Shown piece after piece: positions 27,301-41,465 of a DNA stretch of 50,509 bases. Each line of letters starts with the position of its first letter. Within the stretch, counting starts at the first letter, position 1. Source of the DNA: a virus; the IMG/VR virus record IMGVR_UViG_3300008107_000272, positions 1 to 50,509 of that record, one strand, 5' to 3'. The notes below the pieces were generated by a model that made no database searches, was not told the DNA's origin, and was given only the letters and a program-made list of their open reading frames with translations. Made by a program: the position numbers and the translations under genes.

Positions 27301-27551
27301 TCTTTGTGATATTTTTTATTTTTTTATATATCAACCTTATGAGAACTTTTTATTGGGGAAAAATTTTTTGATTTCGAGTGTATAAAAGAGCTCGCTTTCG
27401 TAACACTTTGTAGGTTAGGGTAGTTATGGGTTTTTATAATACCCCCCCATCACGCGCCACGCCATCACGTTAACGTTATACCATACCCTGCACCTGCACG
27501 AACCCACCCATAAGGGGGGGCACTGCTGCCCCCGTGTGCTAGGATGGAGGG
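27301..27551. other. Boundary spacer: AT-rich to GC-rich transition
   Basis: No gene is seen in these 251 bases. The left part (to about 27400) is very AT-rich, with a minus-strand TTGATATATAAAA just upstream of the AbrB-like gene. Around 27430-27450 a GGGT...ACCC hairpin surrounds TATAAT. The right part is GC-rich and ends in the terminator-like hairpin at 27516-27533. The base composition changes sharply here. Confidence 0.5.
27516..27533 (-). terminator. GC-rich hairpin closing the island
   Basis: Perfect GGGGGCA-loop-TGCCCCC (7-bp stem) about 20 nt downstream of the gene ending at 27552. There is no long U-tract, so it is a hairpin of the kind repeated in the island rather than a classical intrinsic terminator. 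Confidence 0.5.
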
Positions 27552-27996: not shown

Positions 27997-28045
27997 CGGT
28001 CTGGGGTGTGAACTGAGAGAATTGTAGAGCATCAGGCGGCAGGGG

Positions 28046-28222
28046 TCAATACCCCAACCACACCAGGAATTCGCCAGTATCGACGCGAAAGGGAACCGTC
28101 CCATAGTCGGTGCGGAAGTCATCCCAGCAGGAGTGATCCTTTGCTGCCTGGCAGGCGGTGCTCCAGCGGATGGTGCCATTCTCAGGGTTGGTAGCGTTCC
28201 AGAGGATCTGAGGGAAGGTCAT
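28046..28222 (-). CDS. GC-island mini-protein 3
   Basis: 58 aa: MTFPQILWNATNPENGTIRW, then STACQAAKDHSCWDDFRTDY and FRVDTGEFLVWLGY. No family recognised. The ATG has the same ACCG-ATG context as its neighbours and lies just downstream of the degenerate promoter repeat at 28241-28253. There is a clear coding pattern (GC-rich third positions) and no membrane segment. Confidence 0.62.
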   Translation of the reverse strand: MTFPQILWNATNPENGTIRWSTACQAAKDHSCWDDFRTDYGTVPFRVDTGEFLVWLGY

Positions 28223-28271
28223 CGGTCGGTGTCGGTTGCTTTGAAATTATAGAGGATCAGAGGGCAGGAGG

Positions 28272-28460
28272 TCAATCCTCCATCCCCATCGCCTGCTTCA
28301 GGGTGTTGTAGGCGTTCAGGTAATAGTCGGCATCGGTTCCCTTGCCAGCGGTGCGACAATCAACAGCGAGGCAGAGCACAGCGGTTCGGATGGTGCTCCA
28401 CTGCGCCTCAGTCAGGGTGACGGTGCAGAGGTCCAGGGGCAGGACGTTGGTGCGGGTCAT
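28272..28460 (-). CDS. GC-island mini-protein 4
   Basis: 62 aa: MTRTNVLPLDLCTVTLTEAQ, then WSTIRTAVLCLAVDCRTAGK and a helical C-terminus ADYYLNAYNTLKQAM. No family recognised; probably an alpha-helical cytosolic protein. Own promoter repeat at 28472-28491. Unlike most neighbours, the ATG is not preceded by ACCG. Confidence 0.62.
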   Translation of the reverse strand: MTRTNVLPLDLCTVTLTEAQWSTIRTAVLCLAVDCRTAGKGTDADYYLNAYNTLKQAMGMED

Positions 28461-28510
28461 CAGAGGTCGTTTGAACTGAGAGTATTGTAGCAGATAAAGG
28501 GGCGGACTCC

Positions 28511-28696
28511 TCAGATCATCACCGTCGTGGGCAGCGCCTGAACGATGGGTGAGTGGTGGCGGTAGCAGAATTCCCGCAGGTCGTGGATCGACTCGCCAGC
28601 GAAGTCATCAGCGGTAAAGGTCCGACCGTGGAATTCGCGATCGATCTCAGTCAGGGTGTGAGCAATCAGGGAGCGGAGGTTCTGAGTGGTGGTCAT
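28511..28696 (-). CDS. GC-island mini-protein 5
   Basis: 61 aa: MTTTQNLRSLIAHTLTEIDR, then EFHGRTFTADDFAGESIHDL and REFCYRHHSPIVQALPTTVMI. No family recognised. Starts at ACCG-ATG; its promoter repeat (28707-28724) has a degraded -10 (TAGGAT). Confidence 0.62.
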   Translation of the reverse strand: MTTTQNLRSLIAHTLTEIDREFHGRTFTADDFAGESIHDLREFCYRHHSPIVQALPTTVMI

Positions 28697-28738
28697 CGGT
28701 TTCGTTTGAACTGAGAGAATCCTAGTCGGTCGGTGGGG

Positions 28739-28918
28739 TCAGTCGCGGTCGCTGATGTTCCAGATGCCCCACTGTCCACCGTTGGCATGAGCGTCGCGGG
28801 TTTCGATTGCCTGCTGACGCTGGGCGCTGGTGTAGCGGGTCCAACCCTCAGCGGTCTCGCTTGCCAGGGTGCTGCCATAGCAGGCATTCCAGATCAGGTT
28901 CGCTTCGGTGATGGTCAT
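28739..28918 (-). CDS. GC-island mini-protein 6
   Basis: 59 aa: MTITEANLIWNACYGSTLAS, then ETAEGWTRYTSAQRQQAIET and RDAHANGGQWGIWNISDRD. No family recognised. ACCG-ATG leader; promoter repeat 28933-28951. The frame is open and compositionally like its neighbours. Confidence 0.62.
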   Translation of the reverse strand: MTITEANLIWNACYGSTLASETAEGWTRYTSAQRQQAIETRDAHANGGQWGIWNISDRD

Positions 28919-28955
28919 CGGTCGGTGTCGGTTGAACTGAGAGTATTGTAGCAGA

Positions 28956-29081
28956 TCAGTAGGACTGCCAGGCGGATTCTGCCATGTCGTTTGCCATCTC
29001 CTCCAGATTGTCGGCGGTCACCCGCTCATTGTACCATTCGATCTCAGAGGGGTCCAGGCGGTGCAGATCGCAACCATACAT
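28956..29081 (-). CDS. GC-island mini-protein 7, possibly 5'-eroded
   Basis: 41 aa from the first available ATG: MYGCDLHRLDPSEIEWYNER, then VTADNLEEMANDMAESAWQSY. The frame stays open upstream and would add FKNAIAAE directly after the promoter repeat (29102-29120), but no ATG, GTG or TTG is present there. The N-terminus therefore looks eroded, or a non-standard start is used. NLEEMANDMAE is a motif I associate with small cyanophage proteins. Confidence 0.55.
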   Translation of the reverse strand: MYGCDLHRLDPSEIEWYNERVTADNLEEMANDMAESAWQSY

Positions 29082-29160
29082 CTCAGCAGCGATGGCGTTT
29101 TTGAACTGAGATCAGTATAGAGGCAAAAGGGAAGGGTCATCCCCCTCCGTTGTGCCACTA

Positions 29161-29295
29161 TCAGAACTGGACTTCTTCCAGAGTGGGTTGGGCAGCAGTG
29201 ATGGTATCATCGGCGCCGATGCTTTCCAGGATGCTCAGCAGTTCAGCACCATTGGCAGCGCGATTCAGCAGGGTCAGAGCGAGGTCGGTTGTCAT
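29161..29295 (-). CDS. GC-island mini-protein 8
   Basis: 44 aa: MTTDLALTLLNRAANGAELL, then SILESIGADDTITAAQPTLE and EVQF. Entirely helical and acidic. It resembles short cyanobacterial/cyanophage peptides of the form LAxxLLxxxxxGxExLxILDxI. Promoter: TACAAT at 29352-29357, immediately after the stop of the next gene upstream. Confidence 0.6.
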   Translation of the reverse strand: MTTDLALTLLNRAANGAELLSILESIGADDTITAAQPTLEEVQF

Positions 29296-29357
29296 GCTAG
29301 GATTGTGGGTTGTGGTTGTGGTTGGGAGTCTTTAAGGGCGCTCCCGCTCCCATTGTA

Positions 29358-29546
29358 TCAGGCGACCGCGTAGGCGGATTCCAGGCAGACCTCACGGATC
29401 TCCATCAGAACGTAGTCGATCCCCAGAGCACCGTCATAGAGTTCTGCCTTGTATGCTTCGGCAGCAGAGAGGCAATCGAACAGGCGGAGGGTATCGAAAC
29501 GCTCACCCTCATAATCAGCACCACCGATCACAGCGTAGACTTTCAT
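29358..29546 (-). CDS. GC-island mini-protein 9 (MKVYAVIGG family)
   Basis: 62 aa: MKVYAVIGGADYEGERFDTL, then RLFDCLSAAEAYKAELYDGA and a C-terminus VLMEIREVCLESAYAV. The MKVYAVIGGxDYEG start is a recurrent small-protein type in cyanophages, often in several copies. It is a predicted small alpha/beta protein. Promoter repeat 29561-29579 is a one-off variant (GACTTCAG instead of GATCTCAG). Confidence 0.7.
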   Translation of the reverse strand: MKVYAVIGGADYEGERFDTLRLFDCLSAAEAYKAELYDGALGIDYVLMEIREVCLESAYAVA

Positions 29547-29590
29547 GGGTTCGGGTCGTTTGAACTGAAGTCAGTATAGGGTCAAAGGGT

Positions 29591-29608
29591 GGGGGGTTGG
29601 TGCCCCCC
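29591..29608 (-). terminator. G-run hairpin with TGGCACA lead-in
   Basis: After the stop at 29619 the minus strand reads ACTGGCACAA, then GGGGGG-CACCAA-CCCCCC (6-bp stem), directly before the next promoter repeat. Typical of the island's intergenic module. No long U-tract. Confidence 0.5.
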
Positions 29609-29618
29609 TTGTGCCAGT

Positions 29619-29879
29619 TCAGAGATCGAACACGTCGCCGTTGATCTCAGCGCGGTTGATCTTAGGATCGTTCCACTTTACACCGTCAGGGGTCTCAGTG
29701 GTGCCGAACTCATAAAATGCCTCCAGCAGTTCCTCATAGCAGCAGATCTCATTCTCTTGAATGAAGTTATAGATGCTCTCATCATTCTCAATCCAGAGAA
29801 CAACGTTCCAGGTTTCGTAGTTAGTCCAACCGTTATAGGTGCGGTCGGTGAGGTTGGTCTGGTAGGTTGCGGTTGCCAT
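29619..29879 (-). CDS. GC-island protein with NGWTNYETWNV motif
   Basis: 86 aa: MATATYQTNLTDRTYNGWTN, then YETWNVVLWIENDESIYNFI and TPDGVKWNDPKINRAEING. The NGWTNYETWNVALWI motif occurs in many small phage proteins of unknown function (I believe DUF7249-type). Soluble, acidic. Own promoter repeat at 29894-29912. Confidence 0.78.
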   Translation of the reverse strand: MATATYQTNLTDRTYNGWTNYETWNVVLWIENDESIYNFIQENEICCYEELLEAFYEFGTTETPDGVKWNDPKINRAEINGDVFDL

Positions 29880-29916
29880 TGGTGGTTCGGGTGTGAACTG
29901 AGATCAGTATAAGGGG

Positions 29917-30084
29917 TCAGCGGCGCAGGAGGTCGGCGCTGGTGGACAGTAGGTCTGCTGTCACACTACGGACGGGATACAGTGGACCCCAGAACCCCCA
30001 GAGTAGCAGCGCAGCGATCGTCAGGCGGAGCATTGTGGCACGGTGAAACTCAGGGGATCGTGAGCGGGTCAGGGTGCGGATCAT
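29917..30084 (-). CDS. Small membrane protein
   Basis: 55 aa from MIRTLTRSRSPEFHRATMLR; an alternative start (MLRLTIAALLLWGFWGP) gives 38 aa. One hydrophobic segment LTIAALLLWGFWGPLY. The longer start overlaps the preceding stop as ATGA, which favours it. The C-terminus is SVTADLLSTSADLLRR. It forms a two-membrane-peptide operon with the 27-aa gene upstream. Confidence 0.5.
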   Translation of the reverse strand: MIRTLTRSRSPEFHRATMLRLTIAALLLWGFWGPLYPVRSVTADLLSTSADLLRR

Positions 30085-30164
30085 CGGCGGAGGATACGTT
30101 GCAGGAGCAGGACCTGACCTGCCCCCAGAGCGTAGGCGATCAGGACTAGGATGCCAGTGATCAT
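30081..30164 (-). CDS. 27-aa membrane peptide
   Basis: MITGILVLIAYALGAGQVLL followed by LQRILRR: a single hydrophobic helix with a basic tail. The ATG overlaps the previous stop (ATGA) and its own stop overlaps the next ATG, so it sits inside a translationally coupled three-gene unit. Too short for any family call. Confidence 0.5.
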   Translation of the reverse strand: MITGILVLIAYALGAGQVLLLQRILRR

Positions 30165-30322
30165 CGTTCCAGTTGTGCCAGGGAGGATGGTGCGATGTGA
30201 GAGGGGGAACCACAGGAGAGATAGAACTCTACCATACGGTCTGCCTCCTCCTTAGTGGGGAACCACTGGGAGCGCCACTCACAAGCGTTGTAGGGGGTCT
30301 GGTAGCGGACTTCGAAGCGCAT
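30161..30322 (-). CDS. GC-island mini-protein (MRFEVRYQTPY family)
   Basis: 53 aa: MRFEVRYQTPYNACEWRSQW, then FPTKEEADRMVEFYLSCGSP and SHIAPSSLAQLER. The pattern (YEVRYQTPY..EWRS..F...EDA.RM..FY.SCG) recurs in cyanophage small proteins; probably a small alpha/beta fold. First gene of the three-gene unit, behind a degenerate promoter repeat at 30338-30352. Confidence 0.7.
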   Translation of the reverse strand: MRFEVRYQTPYNACEWRSQWFPTKEEADRMVEFYLSCGSPSHIAPSSLAQLER

Positions 30323-30363
30323 GGGGTTGGTTGCGTTGTGAGAGTATTGTAGCGGGTCGGCGT

Positions 30364-30381
30364 GGGGGGCACGTGCCCCCC
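30364..30381 (-). terminator. Perfect 18-bp palindromic hairpin GGGGGGCACGTGCCCCCC
   Basis: A perfect inverted repeat with no loop, located between the stop at 30395 (followed by CACTGGCACAA) and the next promoter repeat. As RNA it would form a 7-bp stem with a 4-base loop. It could also be a protein-binding site. Confidence 0.5.
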
Positions 30382-30394
30382 TTGTGCCAGTGCC

Positions 30395-30559
30395 TCAGTC
30401 GGCATAGAGGCGCTGGAAGTCCTCGAGGAAGTCCCGTGCCTCATCACCACTCATACGGGCGATCATCTCCTTGGCAACGGTTTCCCAGGAGAAGTCGTCT
30501 GCCAGATCGTAGATGGCGCTCTTTGCCTGGTTTGCGGTGAGGCGGGTTGCGGTGCTCAT
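30395..30559 (-). CDS. GC-island mini-protein, helical
   Basis: 54 aa: MSTATRLTANQAKSAIYDLA, then DDFSWETVAKEMIARMSGDE and ARDFLEDFQRLYAD. All-helical and acidic; resembles small phage proteins with 'W..VA.E.l..MSgde...FLEdf.r.y.d'. ACCG-ATG start, promoter repeat 30570-30588. Confidence 0.66.
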   Translation of the reverse strand: MSTATRLTANQAKSAIYDLADDFSWETVAKEMIARMSGDEARDFLEDFQRLYAD

Positions 30560-30592
30560 CGGTGTTGTGTGAACTGAGATCAGTATAAGGGG

Positions 30593-30772
30593 TCAGCGGG
30601 CAGCAGGCAGGAGGCATTTGGACACTTGACCAGGTGTCACAAGCACCTGCCCACCCTGTGCGGTGCAACGTGCTTCGATGCGAGCATTGCCATTGCGAAG
30701 CAAAGTAACGTAACCAGCGGTTGCCAGTGTGATGACCAGCAGGGCGATGGCGGTTGCTTTGAGGGTCTGCAC
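30593..30772 (-). CDS. Single-pass membrane protein, GTG start
   Basis: 59 aa from a GTG: VQTLKATAIALLVITLATAG, then a polar domain RIEARCTAQGGQVLVTPGQV and SKCLLPAAR. N-terminal hydrophobic segment with an N-in topology likely and a small exported domain with two cysteines. GTG was chosen because the promoter repeat (30785-30803) lies 13 nt upstream and excludes longer frames. It is divergent from the plus-strand RNA element at about 30.9 kb. Confidence 0.58.
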   Translation of the reverse strand: MQTLKATAIALLVITLATAGYVTLLRNGNARIEARCTAQGGQVLVTPGQVSKCLLPAAR

Positions 30773-30834
30773 TGGGTCGGTTGTCTGAACTGAGATCAGT
30801 ATAAGGGCAGAGTGGGGGCAGAGTCGGGGGCAGG

Positions 30835-30856
30835 GTGCCAGTTCAGAAGGTGGCAC
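30835..30856. repeat. GTGCCA-N10-TGGCAC inverted repeat
   Basis: Inverted repeat GTGCCA...TGGCAC between a divergent gene and the plus-strand RNA element. The same arms recur at 34819-34844, 34993-35016 and 41346-41365 (shorter). The half-site TGGCACA also follows many stop codons in this region. Confidence 0.5.
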
Positions 30857-30863
30857 ACTGGTG

Positions 30864-30898
30864 GTTGTATGGGGTCGCCGTGGCCCTATACTGAGGTC
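30864..30898 (+). promoter_or_regulatory. Plus-strand promoter for RNA element 1
   Basis: TTGTAT, a 16-bp spacer, then TATACT on the plus strand, followed by GAGGTCACAAG. This is the only strand reversal in the island and leads directly into the structured element. It is a moderate match to sigma-70. Confidence 0.5.
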
Positions 30899-30901
30899 AC
30901 A

Positions 30902-31009
30902 AGCGAAGGAGGGGCGGGGTAGCCCTGATGACGAAAACGGTCGCCACGCCCCCTGCCATAAAATAAAAAAAAGAAAAAGTATAAAAAAAGGGGGCGGATT
31001 GCACCCCCC
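30902..31009 (+). ncRNA. Candidate structured small RNA, copy 1
   Basis: Plus-strand element with a second copy at 34893-34984. Core 30911-30952 folds as an outer stem GGGGCG/CGCCCC (30911-30916 with 30947-30952) enclosing a short hairpin (30917-30926) and a CGA/UCG hairpin (30932-30943), with the single-stranded segments UGACGA, CGCCAC and the tail UGCCAUAAAAUA identical in both copies. The second copy keeps the pairing through G-U to A-U and C-U changes. It ends in a GGGGG/CCCCC hairpin followed by TTTT. No open reading frame is shared between copies. It does not match the hammerhead core, although CUGAUGA is present here. Function unknown. Confidence 0.55.
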
Positions 31010-31013
31010 TTTT
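30984..31013. terminator. Bidirectional intrinsic terminator
   Basis: GGGGG-9 nt-CCCCC hairpin flanked by A7 on the left and T4 on the right, so it reads as a U-tailed terminator on both strands. It ends the plus-strand RNA element and the minus-strand gene whose stop is at 31021. Confidence 0.72.
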
Positions 31014-31020
31014 GTATCAT

Positions 31021-31182
31021 TCAGCGACCGTCAGTATAGTCTCCGATGATCATACCATTCTGGCGAACCTGAGCGTAACCGTATTCTTCAGAGAGTGACA
31101 GGCACAGGTCCCAGGCACGATCCTCATCGGTGGTAGTGTTCTCCCAAGGAGCGGAAGGGCAGATCACGTCTAGGCGTTGCAT
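31021..31182 (-). CDS. GC-island mini-protein
   Basis: 53 aa: MQRLDVICPSAPWENTTTDE, then DRAWDLCLSLSEEYGYAQVR and QNGMIIGDYTDGR. Resembles small cyanophage proteins in which an 'AWDLCLSLSEEyGYAqvr..g..iGdYt' block is preserved. ACCG-ATG start, promoter repeat at 31193-31211; its stop is followed by the bidirectional terminator. Confidence 0.68.
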   Translation of the reverse strand: MQRLDVICPSAPWENTTTDEDRAWDLCLSLSEEYGYAQVRQNGMIIGDYTDGR

Positions 31183-31249
31183 CGGTTTCGTTTGAACTGA
31201 GATCAGTATAAGGGGTGGAGGGGGTCGGTTGTGACCCCCAGTGGACGGT

Positions 31250-31426
31250 TCAGAGATCGGCCCAGAGAGCGGTGGTGATCTTCTCAGCGCCCTCCAAACC
31301 GTCGCGAACGATCAGGCGAAGGGTCTCAGCACCGTCAGGGGTGCGGTGCATCTGGCGGATCATGCTAGGGGTGAACACGTCCCAGGTGATCACGTGTGCG
31401 GTCTGCAGGAGTTGCTCGCGGGTCAT
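31250..31426 (-). CDS. GC-island mini-protein
   Basis: 58 aa: MTREQLLQTAHVITWDVFTP, then SMIRQMHRTPDGAETLRLIV and RDGLEGAEKITTALWADL. Helical, no family recognised. Promoter repeat 31439-31457. It is the last gene of the GC-rich run before composition returns toward the phage average. Confidence 0.62.
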   Translation of the reverse strand: MTREQLLQTAHVITWDVFTPSMIRQMHRTPDGAETLRLIVRDGLEGAEKITTALWADL

Positions 31427-31495
31427 CGCGGTTGCTTGTGAACTGAGATCAGTATAAGGGGCAGGCGGTGCCCCTTGCTGGTTCAGGTGGACGGT

Positions 31496-32395
31496 TCAGG
31501 CACTGGCACACTGAAAGCGTCCGCTGGTGAAATTGTGGTAGGAAAACACTTCACGATTCACCAGTTTAAACATACCAAACTCATTGGAGAGAACATAACC
31601 TTCAGCATCAATTCGATCCTGTTTGATGTATGCTGCGGGACCATTGTTGCGGCACAGGAATAGGCAATCCTCTTTGATAGATTTAACCAGTTTCCAGAAT
31701 CGGATGAGGTTAGGATCACAATCAAAGGCATCATCCTCAATCTCACGCTGCTCACGAATGCAGGCGTTGATTGCCTTCTTCAGTTCTGCCAGTTGTTTAC
31801 CCTGAACGAACTGGCAGGTGGTTGACATTTGGCGGGCGAAGTTGCAGACTTCTTCTACATCAGCGAACGAAGTCTGACCGTGCAGAATGTAGGCATCGGG
31901 TTTCACGAATAGCACGGAATCAGTAGACTCCAGGTTCACCGTGAGAGGGATTGCCCAACTATCACGAAGGTCATCGTTTGCTTCATAACGGGTGTGAGGT
32001 GCGATGATAATTTGCTGATCAATAACCTCAGGGAACTGATAAGTAATCAGATTGGGAGTGTATTCAGTCTCACCACCAAACCCGATAAAATCACCTTGAA
32101 TGATACCATTCACACGGGGCAGATAATCAAAACACGAATGAAGAATGTTGGCGACATTACCCTCATAGTGTTGATCAATCTCGTCGTGAGAGTGTGCAAT
32201 ACGAATCTTCTTTTTGTTGAAAACTGCTTTCGTTCCAACGAAGAATGTATCAGTTGCAGGATCAATTCCCCACACAATTGCAGGGGCACCGTCAATCTTA
32301 ACGCTCAGATGCCTACGAGCAGTGAACCAATCCAGCACGGAAAGATCACCGTTCAGGATGGTATCTTCGGGGTGCTCTTGGTGCTTGTTTTGCAT
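31496..32395 (-). CDS. RNA ligase-like nucleotidyltransferase
   Basis: 299 aa. Residues 31-46 (SVKIDGAPAIVWGIDP) contain the KxDG motif of covalent nucleotidyltransferases, with Lys33 the likely adenylated residue. FFVGTKAVFNKKK (51-63) and GIIQGDFIGFG (97-107) fit motifs III and IV, and VLFVKPDAYI may be motif V. The EHPED start is typical of a cyanophage family annotated as putative RNA ligase. Such enzymes seal nicked RNA, for example tRNA cut by host anticodon nucleases, but the substrate here is unknown. The start at 32395 was chosen over an upstream in-frame Met because the promoter (CATACT about 25 nt upstream) lies inside the longer frame; ACCG-ATG leader. Confidence 0.7.
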   Translation of the reverse strand: MQNKHQEHPEDTILNGDLSVLDWFTARRHLSVKIDGAPAIVWGIDPATDTFFVGTKAVFNKKKIRIAHSHDEIDQHYEGNVANILHSCFDYLPRVNGIIQGDFIGFGGETEYTPNLITYQFPEVIDQQIIIAPHTRYEANDDLRDSWAIPLTVNLESTDSVLFVKPDAYILHGQTSFADVEEVCNFARQMSTTCQFVQGKQLAELKKAINACIREQREIEDDAFDCDPNLIRFWKLVKSIKEDCLFLCRNNGPAAYIKQDRIDAEGYVLSNEFGMFKLVNREVFSYHNFTSGRFQCASA

Positions 32396-32465
32396 CGGTC
32401 TTGTGTTGATGGAATCAGTATGGCACGAATGGGGAGGCAGCACAAGGGGGGTGTGTGCCAGTTCC

Positions 32466-32639
32466 TCAGGTGTCCTCAGAGTGAAGAATGTCTAGCATTT
32501 GCTGGTGATAGTTGTCAGCATCACGAACCACATTTGCTGCTTCAGATACATCATCAATTTCGTATTGTGTCATTTCCAGAGAGTGAATCACATTGGAGAG
32601 AAGGTCAGACAGTGCCTCAATCTTCTGTGCGTCAGTCAT
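32466..32639 (-). CDS. Small helical protein
   Basis: 57 aa: MTDAQKIEALSDLLSNVIHS, then LEMTQYEIDDVSEAANVVRD and ADNYHQQMLDILHSEDT. All-alpha and acidic; no family recognised. It follows the 82-aa gene upstream after 2 nt, so the two form an operon. Its stop is followed by GGAACTGGCACA and a hairpin. Confidence 0.65.
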   Translation of the reverse strand: MTDAQKIEALSDLLSNVIHSLEMTQYEIDDVSEAANVVRDADNYHQQMLDILHSEDT

Positions 32640-32641
32640 TA

Positions 32642-32890
32642 TCAACCCCCACCGTAGACGTATTCTACGATACCTGCCTCATCAAGTCCTACGCTTTCGA
32701 TGATAGTAACCTTAGCATTGTTGAACTCTTTTTGCACCCTTTCATTCTTCACCCGTTCACCATTACAATCAGTAAAATACCCAAACTCTTCCATAAAGAT
32801 CTGTTCACACTGAGGCATAGATTCTGCTGCGATGATACACATGCCGTCAGTATAATCGTAGAGAACTTCTTTGAGAATGTAGAGTTTCAT
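32642..32890 (-). CDS. Small conserved cyanophage protein
   Basis: 82 aa: MKLYILKEVLYDYTDGMCII, then AAESMPQCEQIFMEEFGYFT and VTIIESVGLDEAGIVEYVYG. Predicted alpha/beta protein; the 'YIL.EVLyDYT.GmcviAA.s...ce.if' pattern recurs in cyanophages. Start at 32890 fixed by the ACCG-ATG leader and a promoter (CATACT) about 22 nt upstream. Confidence 0.72.
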   Translation of the reverse strand: MKLYILKEVLYDYTDGMCIIAAESMPQCEQIFMEEFGYFTDCNGERVKNERVQKEFNNAKVTIIESVGLDEAGIVEYVYGGG

Positions 32891-32971
32891 CGGTCGGGTG
32901 GTTTGCTGATGAACGTAGTATGGCACGAAAAAGGGGGGCGATCAACCCCCCGTGTTCCACTTATCAGACTG

Positions 32972-33538
32972 TCACACCAGCGTCAGAGTGTCCAGGTTGT
33001 TGATGCTAACGGTGTTGAACTCTTGCAGAGTCTTGACACCTTCAATGTCAAAGTACAGGTCGATTGCTTCTACTTTGCCACCGTATTGTGCTTGCAGAAC
33101 GTGGTTAATCTTGGTACGATCTTTGGCACTCACGACATCATCGAAACCCTGAACTTCACCCACTTTGTTGAAACGTGGTGCGATACGGGGAAGTACACTC
33201 ACGAACAACACTTTTTCAAGGTTAAGATCAGGAGCGAACATCAATCGTGCTGCTTCACCTACACTAGTGTTAGCGTAGTTTTTGATGTTTTTGTTGATGT
33301 TGCTGTTAAGTGCTTTTCCAAGAATCGCAACCTTAAGTTCACCATCACGAAACCCAGCAATGTCAATGTCAAAAGTGCCACCGAAACCGTCAACAGGAAG
33401 TTGGTATTCAAACTGCCAATCATACTCTGCCCACGCAGAATTGGCGTTCAGAATCTCATCCAGCAGAACTTTATGAAACTCATCAGTGCGCTTGGAAGAA
33501 CGAACGTTCTGGAAGGAAGTCTCGAGGAAGGTTTCCAT
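32972..33538 (-). CDS. Conserved phage protein, possible nuclease-like fold
   Basis: 188 aa: METFLETSFQNVRSSKRTDE, then WAEYDWQFEYQLPVDGFGGT and FDIDIAGFRDGELKVAILGK. The arrangement of an early Glu helix, DIDIAGF and LKVAILGKA is reminiscent of a PD-(D/E)XK core (D...hxK), but a canonical (D/E)xK is not clear. The C-terminus is a second alpha/beta part (VLFVSVLPRIAPRFNKVGEV). Start at 33538 placed downstream of the -10 CTATACT. Nuclease activity is a hypothesis only. Confidence 0.68.
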   Translation of the reverse strand: METFLETSFQNVRSSKRTDEFHKVLLDEILNANSAWAEYDWQFEYQLPVDGFGGTFDIDIAGFRDGELKVAILGKALNSNINKNIKNYANTSVGEAARLMFAPDLNLEKVLFVSVLPRIAPRFNKVGEVQGFDDVVSAKDRTKINHVLQAQYGGKVEAIDLYFDIEGVKTLQEFNTVSINNLDTLTLV

Positions 33539-33573
33539 TGTTGTGTTGTGTGAACGAATGTAGTATAGGGGGT

Positions 33574-33597
33574 GGGGGGTAGGAATGGCAACCCCCC
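33574..33597 (-). terminator. G-run hairpin in the stop-to-promoter module
   Basis: GGGGGGT/ACCCCCC stem (7 bp) between CGAACTGGCACAA (after the stop at 33612) and the CTATACT -10 of the next gene. Part of the repeated intergenic module. Confidence 0.5.
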
Positions 33598-33611
33598 CTT
33601 GTGCCAGTTCG

Positions 33612-33956
33612 TCAGGCGAACACGAATCCGTTGGTGAACTCATGCTCATTATAGACAGGAGAGGTTCCAATCTGCCCGATGAACTTATGAACGAACCACT
33701 TAAAGTTGCGCTGGTAGACACACTCACCGTTGATTGCGTTCGCTTGAAGAATAGCATTCAAACGGGATTTGGTAGTGCTAGACTGATAACCACCATCGAA
33801 GATGGTCACGTAATCATCACCAATCTCAGCAATCTTGTTGCCGTGCAGATACACGAAGGAAACACCATCACTGTCAGTGTGAACCTCAGTGTTGCCAGAC
33901 TTCCAGTTGCGGGAGTCACGAATGGCAGCGTTCATCTCACGTTCGATCTTACGCAT
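33612..33956 (-). CDS. Conserved phage protein, unknown function
   Basis: 114 aa: MRKIEREMNAAIRDSRNWKS, then GNTEVHTDSDGVSFVYLHGN and KIAEIGDDYVTIFDGGYQSS. The GNTxVxxxxxxxxVYLHGNxIA pattern with 'DGG..S.TT.SRLNAIL' resembles a family found in many phages and some cyanobacterial genomes; I know of no function. A beta-sandwich-like N-terminal half is likely. Start placed downstream of the CATACT -10 at about 33982. Confidence 0.72.
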   Translation of the reverse strand: MRKIEREMNAAIRDSRNWKSGNTEVHTDSDGVSFVYLHGNKIAEIGDDYVTIFDGGYQSSTTKSRLNAILQANAINGECVYQRNFKWFVHKFIGQIGTSPVYNEHEFTNGFVFA

Positions 33957-34025
33957 TGGGGTTGGTTGCGTTGACAAATGTAGTATGGACCAGATCGGGG
34001 AGCATTGCAACCCCCCTTGTGCCAC

Positions 34026-34211
34026 TTAATCGACTGTCACACCCTCCACCAGTTCAGGGTAGTATTCTTGACACTCAGTGATCAATTCTTCGTCAGAATA
34101 CTTAGCATAACCCTCATCCAGATAATCATAACAGAGTTGGGTCATTGTTTTGAGGTCCATGTCATCCAACATCTGCTGAATGAGTTGATCTTGAAGTTCA
34201 GTGCGGTTCAT
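34026..34211 (-). CDS. Small acidic protein
   Basis: 61 aa: MNRTELQDQLIQQMLDDMDL, then KTMTQLCYDYLDEGYAKYSD and EELITECQEYYPELVEGVTV. Helical; the C-terminal 'YS.eELi.E..eYyPeLl' is shared with small cyanophage proteins. The ATG overlaps the upstream stop (TGATG), so it is the third gene in a coupled trio. Confidence 0.72.
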   Translation of the reverse strand: MNRTELQDQLIQQMLDDMDLKTMTQLCYDYLDEGYAKYSDEELITECQEYYPELVEGVTVD

Positions 34212-34357
34212 CAACCTTGAGTAGTGTAGGACAACATGTTGTGGAGTTTGTCATAGAGAGCAGCAACATCTGCCCCCACATTCTCACTCACTTCTTGCCA
34301 ATCATCATGAAACTCAATGAGTTCAAGAATGGCGCAGATTTCGTTATGAGTTAGCAT
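34211..34357 (-). CDS. 48-aa protein in coupled trio
   Basis: MLTHNEICAILELIEFHDDW, then QEVSENVGADVAALYDKLHN and MLSYTTQG. Helical. Both ends overlap neighbouring genes as TGATG, which strongly supports it being translated although it is under 60 codons. No family recognised. Confidence 0.65.
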   Translation of the reverse strand: MLTHNEICAILELIEFHDDWQEVSENVGADVAALYDKLHNMLSYTTQG

Positions 34358-34485
34358 CAGTAATCGTAGTTTGCGTTCAGGTACTCATTGACATCGAACT
34401 TGTTATCTTCACGAAGTTCGGGAATGTCCATGTCAAAAATCTCACCAGGCATGTCTTGGATTTCTTGCCAGAGTTCATCAAACAT
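34357..34485 (-). CDS. 42-aa acidic protein, first of coupled trio
   Basis: MFDELWQEIQDMPGEIFDMD followed by IPELREDNKFDVNEYLNANY. Start placed 20-30 nt downstream of a TACATT -10-like element. Its stop overlaps the next ATG (TGATG). No family recognised. Confidence 0.62.
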   Translation of the reverse strand: MFDELWQEIQDMPGEIFDMDIPELREDNKFDVNEYLNANYDY

Positions 34486-34555
34486 GGTGTGTCTCTCAGG
34501 AACGAATGTAATGTAGAACGAAACGGGGGGAACCACAACCCCCCGTGTGACACTT

Positions 34556-34759
34556 CTAGACCTGGCACATCTCCGCCAGGCGGTTACGAATGTCAAACAA
34601 TTCCATCTCATCCATGTCTGCTGATTGTAAATCAACAGGTGCAAATTCTTCTAGATTAACACTACCGTTTGCATAAATTGGAGCATAATACAACTCATCC
34701 CCATCTTCCTGCGACAGAGTGTATACACAACCGTGATCAGGGTAAGTGATAAAAATCAT
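34556..34759 (-). CDS. Small protein, unknown function
   Basis: 67 aa: MIFITYPDHGCVYTLSQEDG, then DELYYAPIYANGSVNLEEFA and PVDLQSADMDEMELFDIRNR. Looks like a small beta protein. Start chosen after the TATGTT -10-like element at about 34785. Divergent from the plus-strand RNA element copy 2. Confidence 0.65.
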   Translation of the reverse strand: MIFITYPDHGCVYTLSQEDGDELYYAPIYANGSVNLEEFAPVDLQSADMDEMELFDIRNRLAEMCQV

Positions 34760-34818
34760 CGGGGTTTTGTGTTGAACGAATCCAACATAAACCCAGATCG
34801 GGGTGCCTTGGGGCAACA

Positions 34819-34844
34819 TTGTGCCACTAGAAGAACTGGCACAA
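34819..34844. repeat. TTGTGCCA-N10-TGGCACAA inverted repeat
   Basis: 8-bp perfect arms between the divergent gene (start 34759) and RNA element 2. Same family as 30835-30856. Confidence 0.55.
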
Positions 34845-34853
34845 GACCCCTTG

Positions 34854-34882
34854 CAATTGGATCTGGTGTCTGCTATCTTATA
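34854..34882 (+). promoter_or_regulatory. Plus-strand promoter for RNA element 2
   Basis: TTGCAA, a 17-bp spacer, then TATCTT on the plus strand, 20-odd bases before the structured core. The placement is equivalent to that of the promoter of copy 1. Confidence 0.48.
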
Positions 34883-34892
34883 AGAAATTCAA

Positions 34893-34984
34893 TGAGGGGA
34901 GAGGTATCCCTGCTGACGACAATACATCGCCACCGCTCCTGCCATAAAATATTCATTCTCAATAAGAAACCCCTTATTGAGAAT
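34893..34984 (+). ncRNA. Candidate structured small RNA, copy 2
   Basis: Second copy of the element at 30902-31009. Outer stem GGGGAG/CGCUCC (34896-34901 with 34934-34939, one mismatch), inner hairpin AGG/CCU (34902-34911), CGA/UCG hairpin (34917-34929) with a longer loop, and identical UGACGA, CGCCAC and UGCCAUAAAAUA segments. Downstream is a perfect 12-bp hairpin ATTCTCAATAAG/CTTATTGAGAAT (34955-34984) instead of the GC-rich terminator of copy 1. It lies between a divergent and a convergent gene, as copy 1 does. Confidence 0.55.
34955..34984. terminator. 12-bp perfect hairpin, possible bidirectional terminator
   Basis: ATTCTCAATAAG-AAACCC-CTTATTGAGAAT. Long but AT-rich, without a marked U-tract. 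It separates RNA element 2 from the convergent 50-aa gene. Related TTCTCAA/TTGAGAA arms recur at about 35663-35714. Confidence 0.5.
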
Positions 34985-34992
34985 AGAAGGGT

Positions 34993-35016
34993 TGTGCCAA
35001 TTCGAGAACTGGCACA
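34993..35016. repeat. TGTGCCA-N10-TGGCACA inverted repeat
   Basis: 7-bp perfect arms immediately after the stop of the 50-aa gene (35017). Together with 34819-34844 it brackets RNA element 2. Confidence 0.5.
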
Positions 35017-35169: not shown

Positions 35170-35256
35170 ACGTGTCTAGTGCGATGTGTCTAGATTATAT
35201 CATGCATAATGACGATATGCAAGATCTTGATAGTCTTGCCCATCTCGTGCATAATC

Positions 35257-35537
35257 CTCGTCGAGATCACGTACATCTAGTGTATAATGCTCGTCGAGAT
35301 CTGCGTAATCGTTGCCAGTGTATGAGTAGTCGAAATCGTAATCGTCGTACATAGCTCGTCGAGATTGTGTGAACGCTTTCGTATTGTAGCATAAAACTCG
35401 ACGAGATGCAATCTAGTCTAGATGTGTGTCTCGTCGAGAATCATACGAATATATATGTACTCTCGTCGAGTTTTATGTGTATCTCGTAACATAAGGTCTC
35501 GTCGAGATCCTATAAGTCTAGTGTGGGTCTCGTCGAG
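35257..35537. repeat. Array of eight CTCGNCGAG palindromes
   Basis: Copies at 35257, 35290, 35355, 35397, 35430, 35462, 35498 and 35529 (9 bp each). Start-to-start spacings are 33, 65, 42, 33, 32, 36 and 31 bp. The 65-bp gap is twice 32.5 and holds a decayed site (GTAGTCGAA, near 35326). About 32 bp is three helical turns, so the sites would lie on one face of the DNA. The centre is T in seven copies and A in one. I saw none of these elsewhere in the window. Confidence 0.85.
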
Positions 35538-35576
35538 TTTTGTGTGGGTTCTGGGAAATTTCTGCGGGCGGTGGAC

Positions 35577-41339: not shown

Positions 41340-41465
41340 TCAGTATGCCAGTTCAGAATCTGGCACCCAGTAGTCATCAGAACCCATATAACCCATCCAA
41401 TCTGATGGTTCAGATCCGTAGATTTCAATTTCCCGCAGTTCTTCAATCAGTTCGGACAGATCCAT
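41340..41465 (-). CDS. 41-aa acidic protein
   Basis: MDLSELIEELREIEIYGSEP then SDWMGYMGSDDYWVPDSELA: very acidic, helical start. Promoter TATAATAACAAGG and a Shine-Dalgarno-like GAGGAA upstream. No family recognised. Confidence 0.55.
   Translation of the reverse strand: MDLSELIEELREIEIYGSEPSDWMGYMGSDDYWVPDSELAY

Follow-up and report, generated by a model that had tools for sequence, protein, structure and literature searches.

A conserved hairpin RNA of T4-like cyanophages, very likely encoded by a phage small-RNA gene

Introduction

Do two similar elements on one strand of a cyanophage genome encode a small RNA, and what could such an RNA do? The question is raised by a stretch of 50,509 nucleotides (IMG/VR record IMGVR_UViG_3300008107_000272, positions 1 to 50,509; here the window), which belongs to a Kyanoviridae-type phage according to megablast matches to S-SRM01, S-PM2 and P-SSM2 and an adjoining Pfam Kyano_Gp96 domain. 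An earlier reading of the letters, made without database searches (the sequence-only reading), had described two plus-strand copies, E1 and E2, sharing the segments TGACGA, CGCCAC and TGCCATAAAATA. These identical segments are seen in the window, where TGACGA-N(4-25)-CGCCAC occurs twice against 0.05 expected. Both copies lie on the strand opposite to the genes and have no reading frame in common, as that reading had stated. Its two elements are retained, but their limits had to be corrected, with the predicted RNA starts now placed at 30899 (E1) and about 34886 (E2). The parts of the two copies are as follows.

30899 to 30965, plus strand: E1 RNA core (copy 1), beginning ACAAGC and ending CUGCCAUAAAAUA; match to covariance model R1 of 84.2 bits, expectation value (E) 9.7e-22
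34886 to 34951, plus strand: E2 RNA core (copy 2); match to model R1 of 79.3 bits, E 2.6e-20
30911 to 30926, plus strand: E1 hairpin P2, with GGGGC (30911-30915), loop GGGGUA (30916-30921) and GCCCU (30922-30926), identified by covariation
34896 to 34911, plus strand: E2 hairpin P2, with GGGGA (34896-34900), loop GAGGUA (34901-34906) and UCCCU (34907-34911)
30941 to 30965, plus strand: E1 conserved single-stranded 3' block, UCGCCAC, five variable bases (30948-30952), CUGCCAUAAAAUA
34927 to 34951, plus strand: E2 conserved 3' block, UCGCCAC, five variable bases (34934-34938), CUGCCAUAAAAUA
30887 to 30892, plus strand: E1 -10 box TATACT, predicted +1 at 30899
34874 to 34879, plus strand: E2 -10 box TATCTT, predicted +1 at about 34886

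Both E1 and E2 were in the training set of R1.

Homologues in cyanophages

The sequence-only reading had proposed a phage-encoded regulatory small RNA and had named a search for covarying homologues as the check on it. Such homologues were found in many phages, together with a promoter exactly where conservation begins, and the core of the proposal, a small structured RNA of phage origin, is now strongly supported; a regulatory role is a hypothesis. Scanning viral contigs for TCGCCAC-N(2-9)-CTGCCATAAAAT gave 98 stretches, with a gap of exactly 5 in 103 of 105 matches, whereas the same pattern in a far larger bacterial genome collection gave 19 matches with scattered gaps, as by chance. Because the gap is fixed in the viruses and scattered in the genome collection, E1 and E2 belong to a real family. 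Model R1 had 153 matches in 99 phage loci, nearly all with E far under the cut-off, and with marine relatives added the family came to 186 matches and 114 distinct sequences in 130 fetched stretches.

The carriers are T4-like cyanophages (Kyanoviridae type) only, both freshwater and marine. Two freshwater isolates have the RNA, S-SRM01 with two copies and DSL-LC03 with one, and P-SSM5 and AG-345-F15 have one copy each. The S-SRM01 copies are on the minus strand of record MW015081, at 88586-88658 and 90138-90208. The marine phage P-SSM2 has one copy with a weak match (E 1.1e-6), which is backed up by its conserved position relative to element X, described below. In record AY939844 this copy occupies minus-strand positions 66481-66551, with a predicted start near 66548. 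The RNA has no annotation in any of these five records. It is missing from the marine phages S-PM2, S-H9-1 and S-T4 and from the freshwater phage DSL-LC02, and S-RSM4 gave only a match at E 0.24. The number of copies per phage record ranges from one to four and is typically one or two, with spacings that are mostly 1.5-4 kilobases (kb). Four copies were seen in one phage (locus L167, G001 182500-188500), one of them inverted and convergent with a neighbour 70 bases off.

A host origin of the RNA was rejected, as a search of 386 cyanobacterial genomes gave nothing above chance (10 of them had a match at E<=0.05, where chance would give about 19) and the pattern matches in the genome collection were those of chance. 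Rfam 15 at the gathering threshold gave no match in the window or in six divergent homologue loci, E1 and E2 scored at chance level against Rfam models, and our literature search found no description of this RNA. The family is conserved, unlisted until now and by kind a phage small RNA, and we hold it to be very likely that it represents a real small-RNA gene.

One hairpin with a conserved loop

The MAFFT alignment of 42 distinct members (A1) was not fitted to any structure, and in it all five pairs of P2 were changed on both sides, with 100% of the cells paired; 500 shuffles and slid partners came nowhere near this signal. Later alignments were fitted to P2, and their answer agrees. RNAalifold returned exactly the five pairs of P2 and nothing more, pairing was 99.6% in 96 sequences, and all five pairs were formed in 111 of 113 parsed members, with 31 distinct stems. 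The re-pairing test gave a z of -19.5. Covariation thus proves P2 as a hairpin of five base pairs (bp). As many contigs are related, the member counts are not independent events, and the variety of the stems is the stronger argument.

The sequence-only reading had drawn an outer stem around two inner hairpins, and only P2 survives from this drawing. The outer stem was rejected, since it competes with P2 and lacks covariation across the family (z -0.3 compared with -19.5). The second inner hairpin is at best a 2-bp GA/UC contact, missing in some marine members. This candidate helix, P3, is not claimed, as two of its pairs hardly ever vary and the third is often unpaired; it is missing in one marine subgroup (L200, L215, L315, L316, L319 and L321). 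A pseudoknot of the loop with the 3' variable block was likewise rejected for want of covariation (z -0.14).

The loop of P2 is a conserved six-base RRGGUM (GGGGUA, AGGGUA, AGGGUC or GAGGUA), with AAGGUC, GAUGUA, GGGGCA and AGGGCA as rare forms. On the 3' side follow the single-stranded UCGnCAC block and, in most copies, CUGCC and an AU-rich tail. A GGGC loop (from GGGU) is present in just two distinct members (L045:6876-6945 and L167:2661-2730), and no other member has GCG in place of UCG, a co-change that is a possible hint of a tertiary contact from the loop to the 3' block.

Promoter, 3' ends and coding capacity

When 104 distinct members were aligned on ACAA, T(-12) was present in 74%, A(-11) in 72%, T(-7) in 86% and A(+1) in 99%. 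The -10 box at -12 to -7 scored at least 4 of 6 in 100 of the 104, compared with about 24% of shuffles, and it ends 6 bases ahead of the almost invariant +1 A, where conservation opens with 5'-ACAA. The -35 region has little conservation. The fixed distance between the -10 box and the +1 A indicates that the RNA has its own promoter. Of the promoter-like sites proposed earlier, the -10-like boxes TATACT and TATCTT are present, but the E2 spacer is 16 and not 17 bases.

Each copy had also been thought to end in a strong hairpin. The hairpins are there, but their T-runs lie on the minus strand, which makes them most likely terminators of the convergent minus-strand genes, the one after E1 being perhaps bidirectional.

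30985 to 31013, no strand assigned: hairpin 3' of E1, T-run on the minus strand; convergent-gene terminator, possibly bidirectional
34954 to 34985, no strand assigned: hairpin 3' of E2, 14 bp, T-run on the minus strand only

In six marine copies UCGnCAC is followed directly by a short inverted repeat and TTTTTT, and the predicted fold of one marine copy contains that terminator-like stem. Several freshwater copies read CUGC-AAAC-TTTTTTTT or similar. For copies keeping AUAAAAUA, we infer processing or a later stop.

The linker lengths, 11-19 bases, cover all residues modulo 3, and as they fall in all frames a peptide was rejected for both strands; only part of the members have an open frame across the element. 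A minus-strand start at ATGGCAGG (MAGxVA), conserved at first sight, was rejected, being lost in many paralogues (GCAGCC, GCACCC, CUGCG) and meeting a stop at codon 4 in L075. By its reading frames, none of which is conserved, the RNA is non-coding.

Gene neighbourhood and element X

With genes called by a simple codon score around 86 distinct members, 75 of 79 right-hand genes were convergent with the RNA and 70 of 81 left-hand genes were divergent from it. This orientation and the overall antisense position argue that the RNA is not the leader of a gene. A second conserved element, X, lies upstream of the RNA genes.

27391 to 27436, plus strand: element X, core GTAACACTTTGTAGGTTAGGGTAG, an invariant intergenic element of 24-27 bases

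X is nearly invariant in at least 119 cyanophage contig stretches while its flanks diverge, and it was not found in 98 cyanobacterial genomes. Where a locus holds both elements, all 46 cases have the RNA on the strand of X and 1.2-7.5 kb downstream of it. Several stretches with X lack the RNA although they extend far enough downstream.

Possible function

As no gene follows on its strand, and as the RNA is non-coding and has its own promoter, it probably acts in trans. Our preferred explanation, which we consider reasonably probable, is a small-RNA gene of the phage, present here twice (E1 and E2), that is transcribed independently and whose product acts in trans. Host RNA polymerase would produce a transcript of about 60-110 bases. 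In some copies a terminator right behind the element would set its 3' end; in others the transcript would be cleaved, either within the AU-rich tail or at the hairpin that lies downstream. Because the stem is nearly free in sequence while the loop and flanks are fixed, the latter may be the surface that meets a partner shared by Synechococcus and Prochlorococcus hosts. The partner could be a host protein that binds or processes RNA and that infection titrates or redirects, and a protein seems slightly likelier than an RNA. More tentatively, the family may be a new viral RNA class in which a GGU-type loop docks on an invariant cyanobacterial part, or on the phage's own X, in host takeover, conserved from phages of freshwater Synechococcus to those of marine Prochlorococcus.

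Several points weigh against a trans-acting small RNA. The transcript is predicted from sequence, and its action in trans is drawn from conservation and from the lack of a downstream gene. E2 has no plus-strand T-run, so its 3' end is not fixed by sequence. The marine terminators have a bulge in the stem, and the consensus scan of one such copy left its terminator unlisted. In addition, the minimum-energy fold of both E1 and E2 is the outer stem, and neither core exceeds shuffles in stability (z -1.0 and 0.1, respectively).

If the small RNA works by base pairing, which would be a more specific form of the preferred explanation, a conserved RNA would be bound through either the RRGGU loop or the UCGnCAC/CUGCC strand. 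RRGGU can pair with ACCYY, which makes ACCUC of the 16S 3' end a candidate target, and the invariant core of X has on its minus strand UACCCU, the perfect complement of AGGGUA. However, the loops GAUGUA (P-SSM2 group), GGGGCA and AGGGCA are incompatible with such pairing, CGnCAC is itself variable (C, A, U and GU changes are tolerated), and matches this short are often expected by chance, so we regard base pairing as possible but doubtful. When the window was searched with TATTTTATGGCAGG for targets able to pair with the conserved 3' strand, nothing above chance was found beyond the two copies. An unlikely alternative is a cis-acting leader of a long antisense transcript, which would alter the polymerase or termination or sense a metabolite as a riboswitch. 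A parallel for the former is the put antitermination RNA of phage HK022, which has two hairpins and precedes operons. Like put, which is about 65 nucleotides long and lies at the very start of the transcript, the element is placed exactly at the transcript start and there are often two copies per genome. The T-run of the next hairpin is on the other strand only in many copies, and antisense read-through would then be possible. Yet those 75 of 79 right-hand genes are convergent rather than co-directional, six marine copies have the inverted repeat and T-run right behind the element, and the RNA has one proven hairpin and no operon on its strand.

The conserved part could also be a site in the DNA, such as a replication origin primed by a short transcript as at the origins of T4, with X as part of the origin region. 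A promoter followed by a short conserved transcript would suit an origin, as would the order and orientation fixed relative to X in 46 of 46 cases and the location within or next to the 28-34 kb island, where GC content and skew are abnormal. Covariation, on the other hand, preserves pairing as in RNA, with Watson-Crick and G-U pairs kept on one strand and both GU and UG common, and both the copy number of one to four and the X-bearing stretches that lack the RNA speak against an origin, which makes it distinctly unlikely. It is rather improbable that the RNA is a decoy against host defence, mimicking a CRISPR (clustered regularly interspaced short palindromic repeats) repeat as Racr anti-CRISPR RNAs do, or a type III antitoxin. 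It is small, compact and multi-copy, its hairpin is GC-rich and its tail A-rich, and it resembles Racr as a small phage-encoded RNA with a hairpin; moreover, an abiF-type RNA has been reported in a cyanophage (PMC9964418). Nevertheless, no similarity to a repeat is apparent, and a repeat mimic would be the reverse of what is seen here, where stems vary freely and the loop and flanks are fixed. S-SRM01 infects SR-C6, which is without CRISPR (PMC8557907), and this makes an anti-CRISPR action unlikely. The layout of a type III antitoxin was not seen either, as there are no tandem repeats, no adjoining toxin gene and no Rfam antitoxin or abiF match, and the units are single and mostly 1.5-4 kb apart, with one close inverted pair in G001. 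The resemblance of CUGAUGA...GAAA in E1 to a hammerhead core might suggest a self-cleaving ribozyme, but CUGAUGACGAAAAC is found in E1 and its close relatives only, the core is missing in E2 and most members (CUGCUGACGACAA, CUGAACAAUACA), and there is neither a Rfam ribozyme match nor a hammerhead stem set, so that a ribozyme is very improbable.

Relation to known phage RNAs

Few viruses on Earth are as abundant as the T4-like cyanophages, and to our knowledge their small-gene regions are almost wholly unannotated. The stable RNAs C and D of T4 are small non-coding RNAs of a T4-like phage with little-known or unknown function. The RNA described here is similar to them as a small non-coding RNA of T4-like phages, but it is distinguished by a promoter of its own and by a loop hairpin that covaries, and no relation to them in sequence or structure is known. 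Structured RNAs of cyanophages are known as wcaG, manA, PhotoRC-II and glnA (Weinberg 2010, PMC2864571), and these likewise occur in T4-like cyanophages. They lie, however, in 5' untranslated regions of metabolic or photosynthesis genes, whereas our RNA precedes no gene and matches none of their models; it is none of these four (PMC2864571), nor is it abiF (PMC9964418). The present results add a strongly covarying structured RNA family that annotation had missed and that is carried by cultured phages (P-SSM2, S-SRM01). Infection systems already in existence, together with RNA sequencing, allow its function to be tested. They also pair this RNA with a second unexplained invariant element, X.

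Other features of the window

The neighbours of the RNA genes in the window are DUF6267, Kyano_Gp96 and unknown proteins. The DUF6267 protein (31496-32395, Pfam E 3e-80), encoded between E1 and E2, has a KIDG motif reminiscent of nucleotidyltransferase ligases. Positions 28001-34000 form a high-GC island (46-56%, against 30-44% elsewhere) that contains E1 and ends just before E2. Its GC skew is +0.01 to +0.16, while that of neighbouring regions with genes on the same strand is negative.

A GTGCCA/TGGCAC inverted repeat had been noted to the left of each copy. It is perfect at both, but it is not specific to them, with 26 sites in the window at up to 3 mismatches and 10.3 expected.

30835 to 30856, no strand assigned: GTGCCA-N10-TGGCAC palindrome upstream of the E1 promoter, an intergenic repeat general to the region
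34821 to 34842, no strand assigned: perfect GTGCCA-N10-TGGCAC palindrome upstream of the E2 promoter
34994 to 35015, no strand assigned: third perfect palindrome of this sequence, right of E2

E2 is thus flanked by one on each side. Such palindromes occur between genes at 28-45 kb (for example at 34994-35015 and 41345-41366), often directly after stop codons. Upstream of minus-strand small genes, TGAACTGAGATCAGTATAAGG is repeated at about 30571, 30789, 31191 and 31441 with a minus-strand TATACT box inside, and it looks like a shared promoter. Another palindrome, CTCGTCGAG, has many copies inside 300 bases at 35240-35540.

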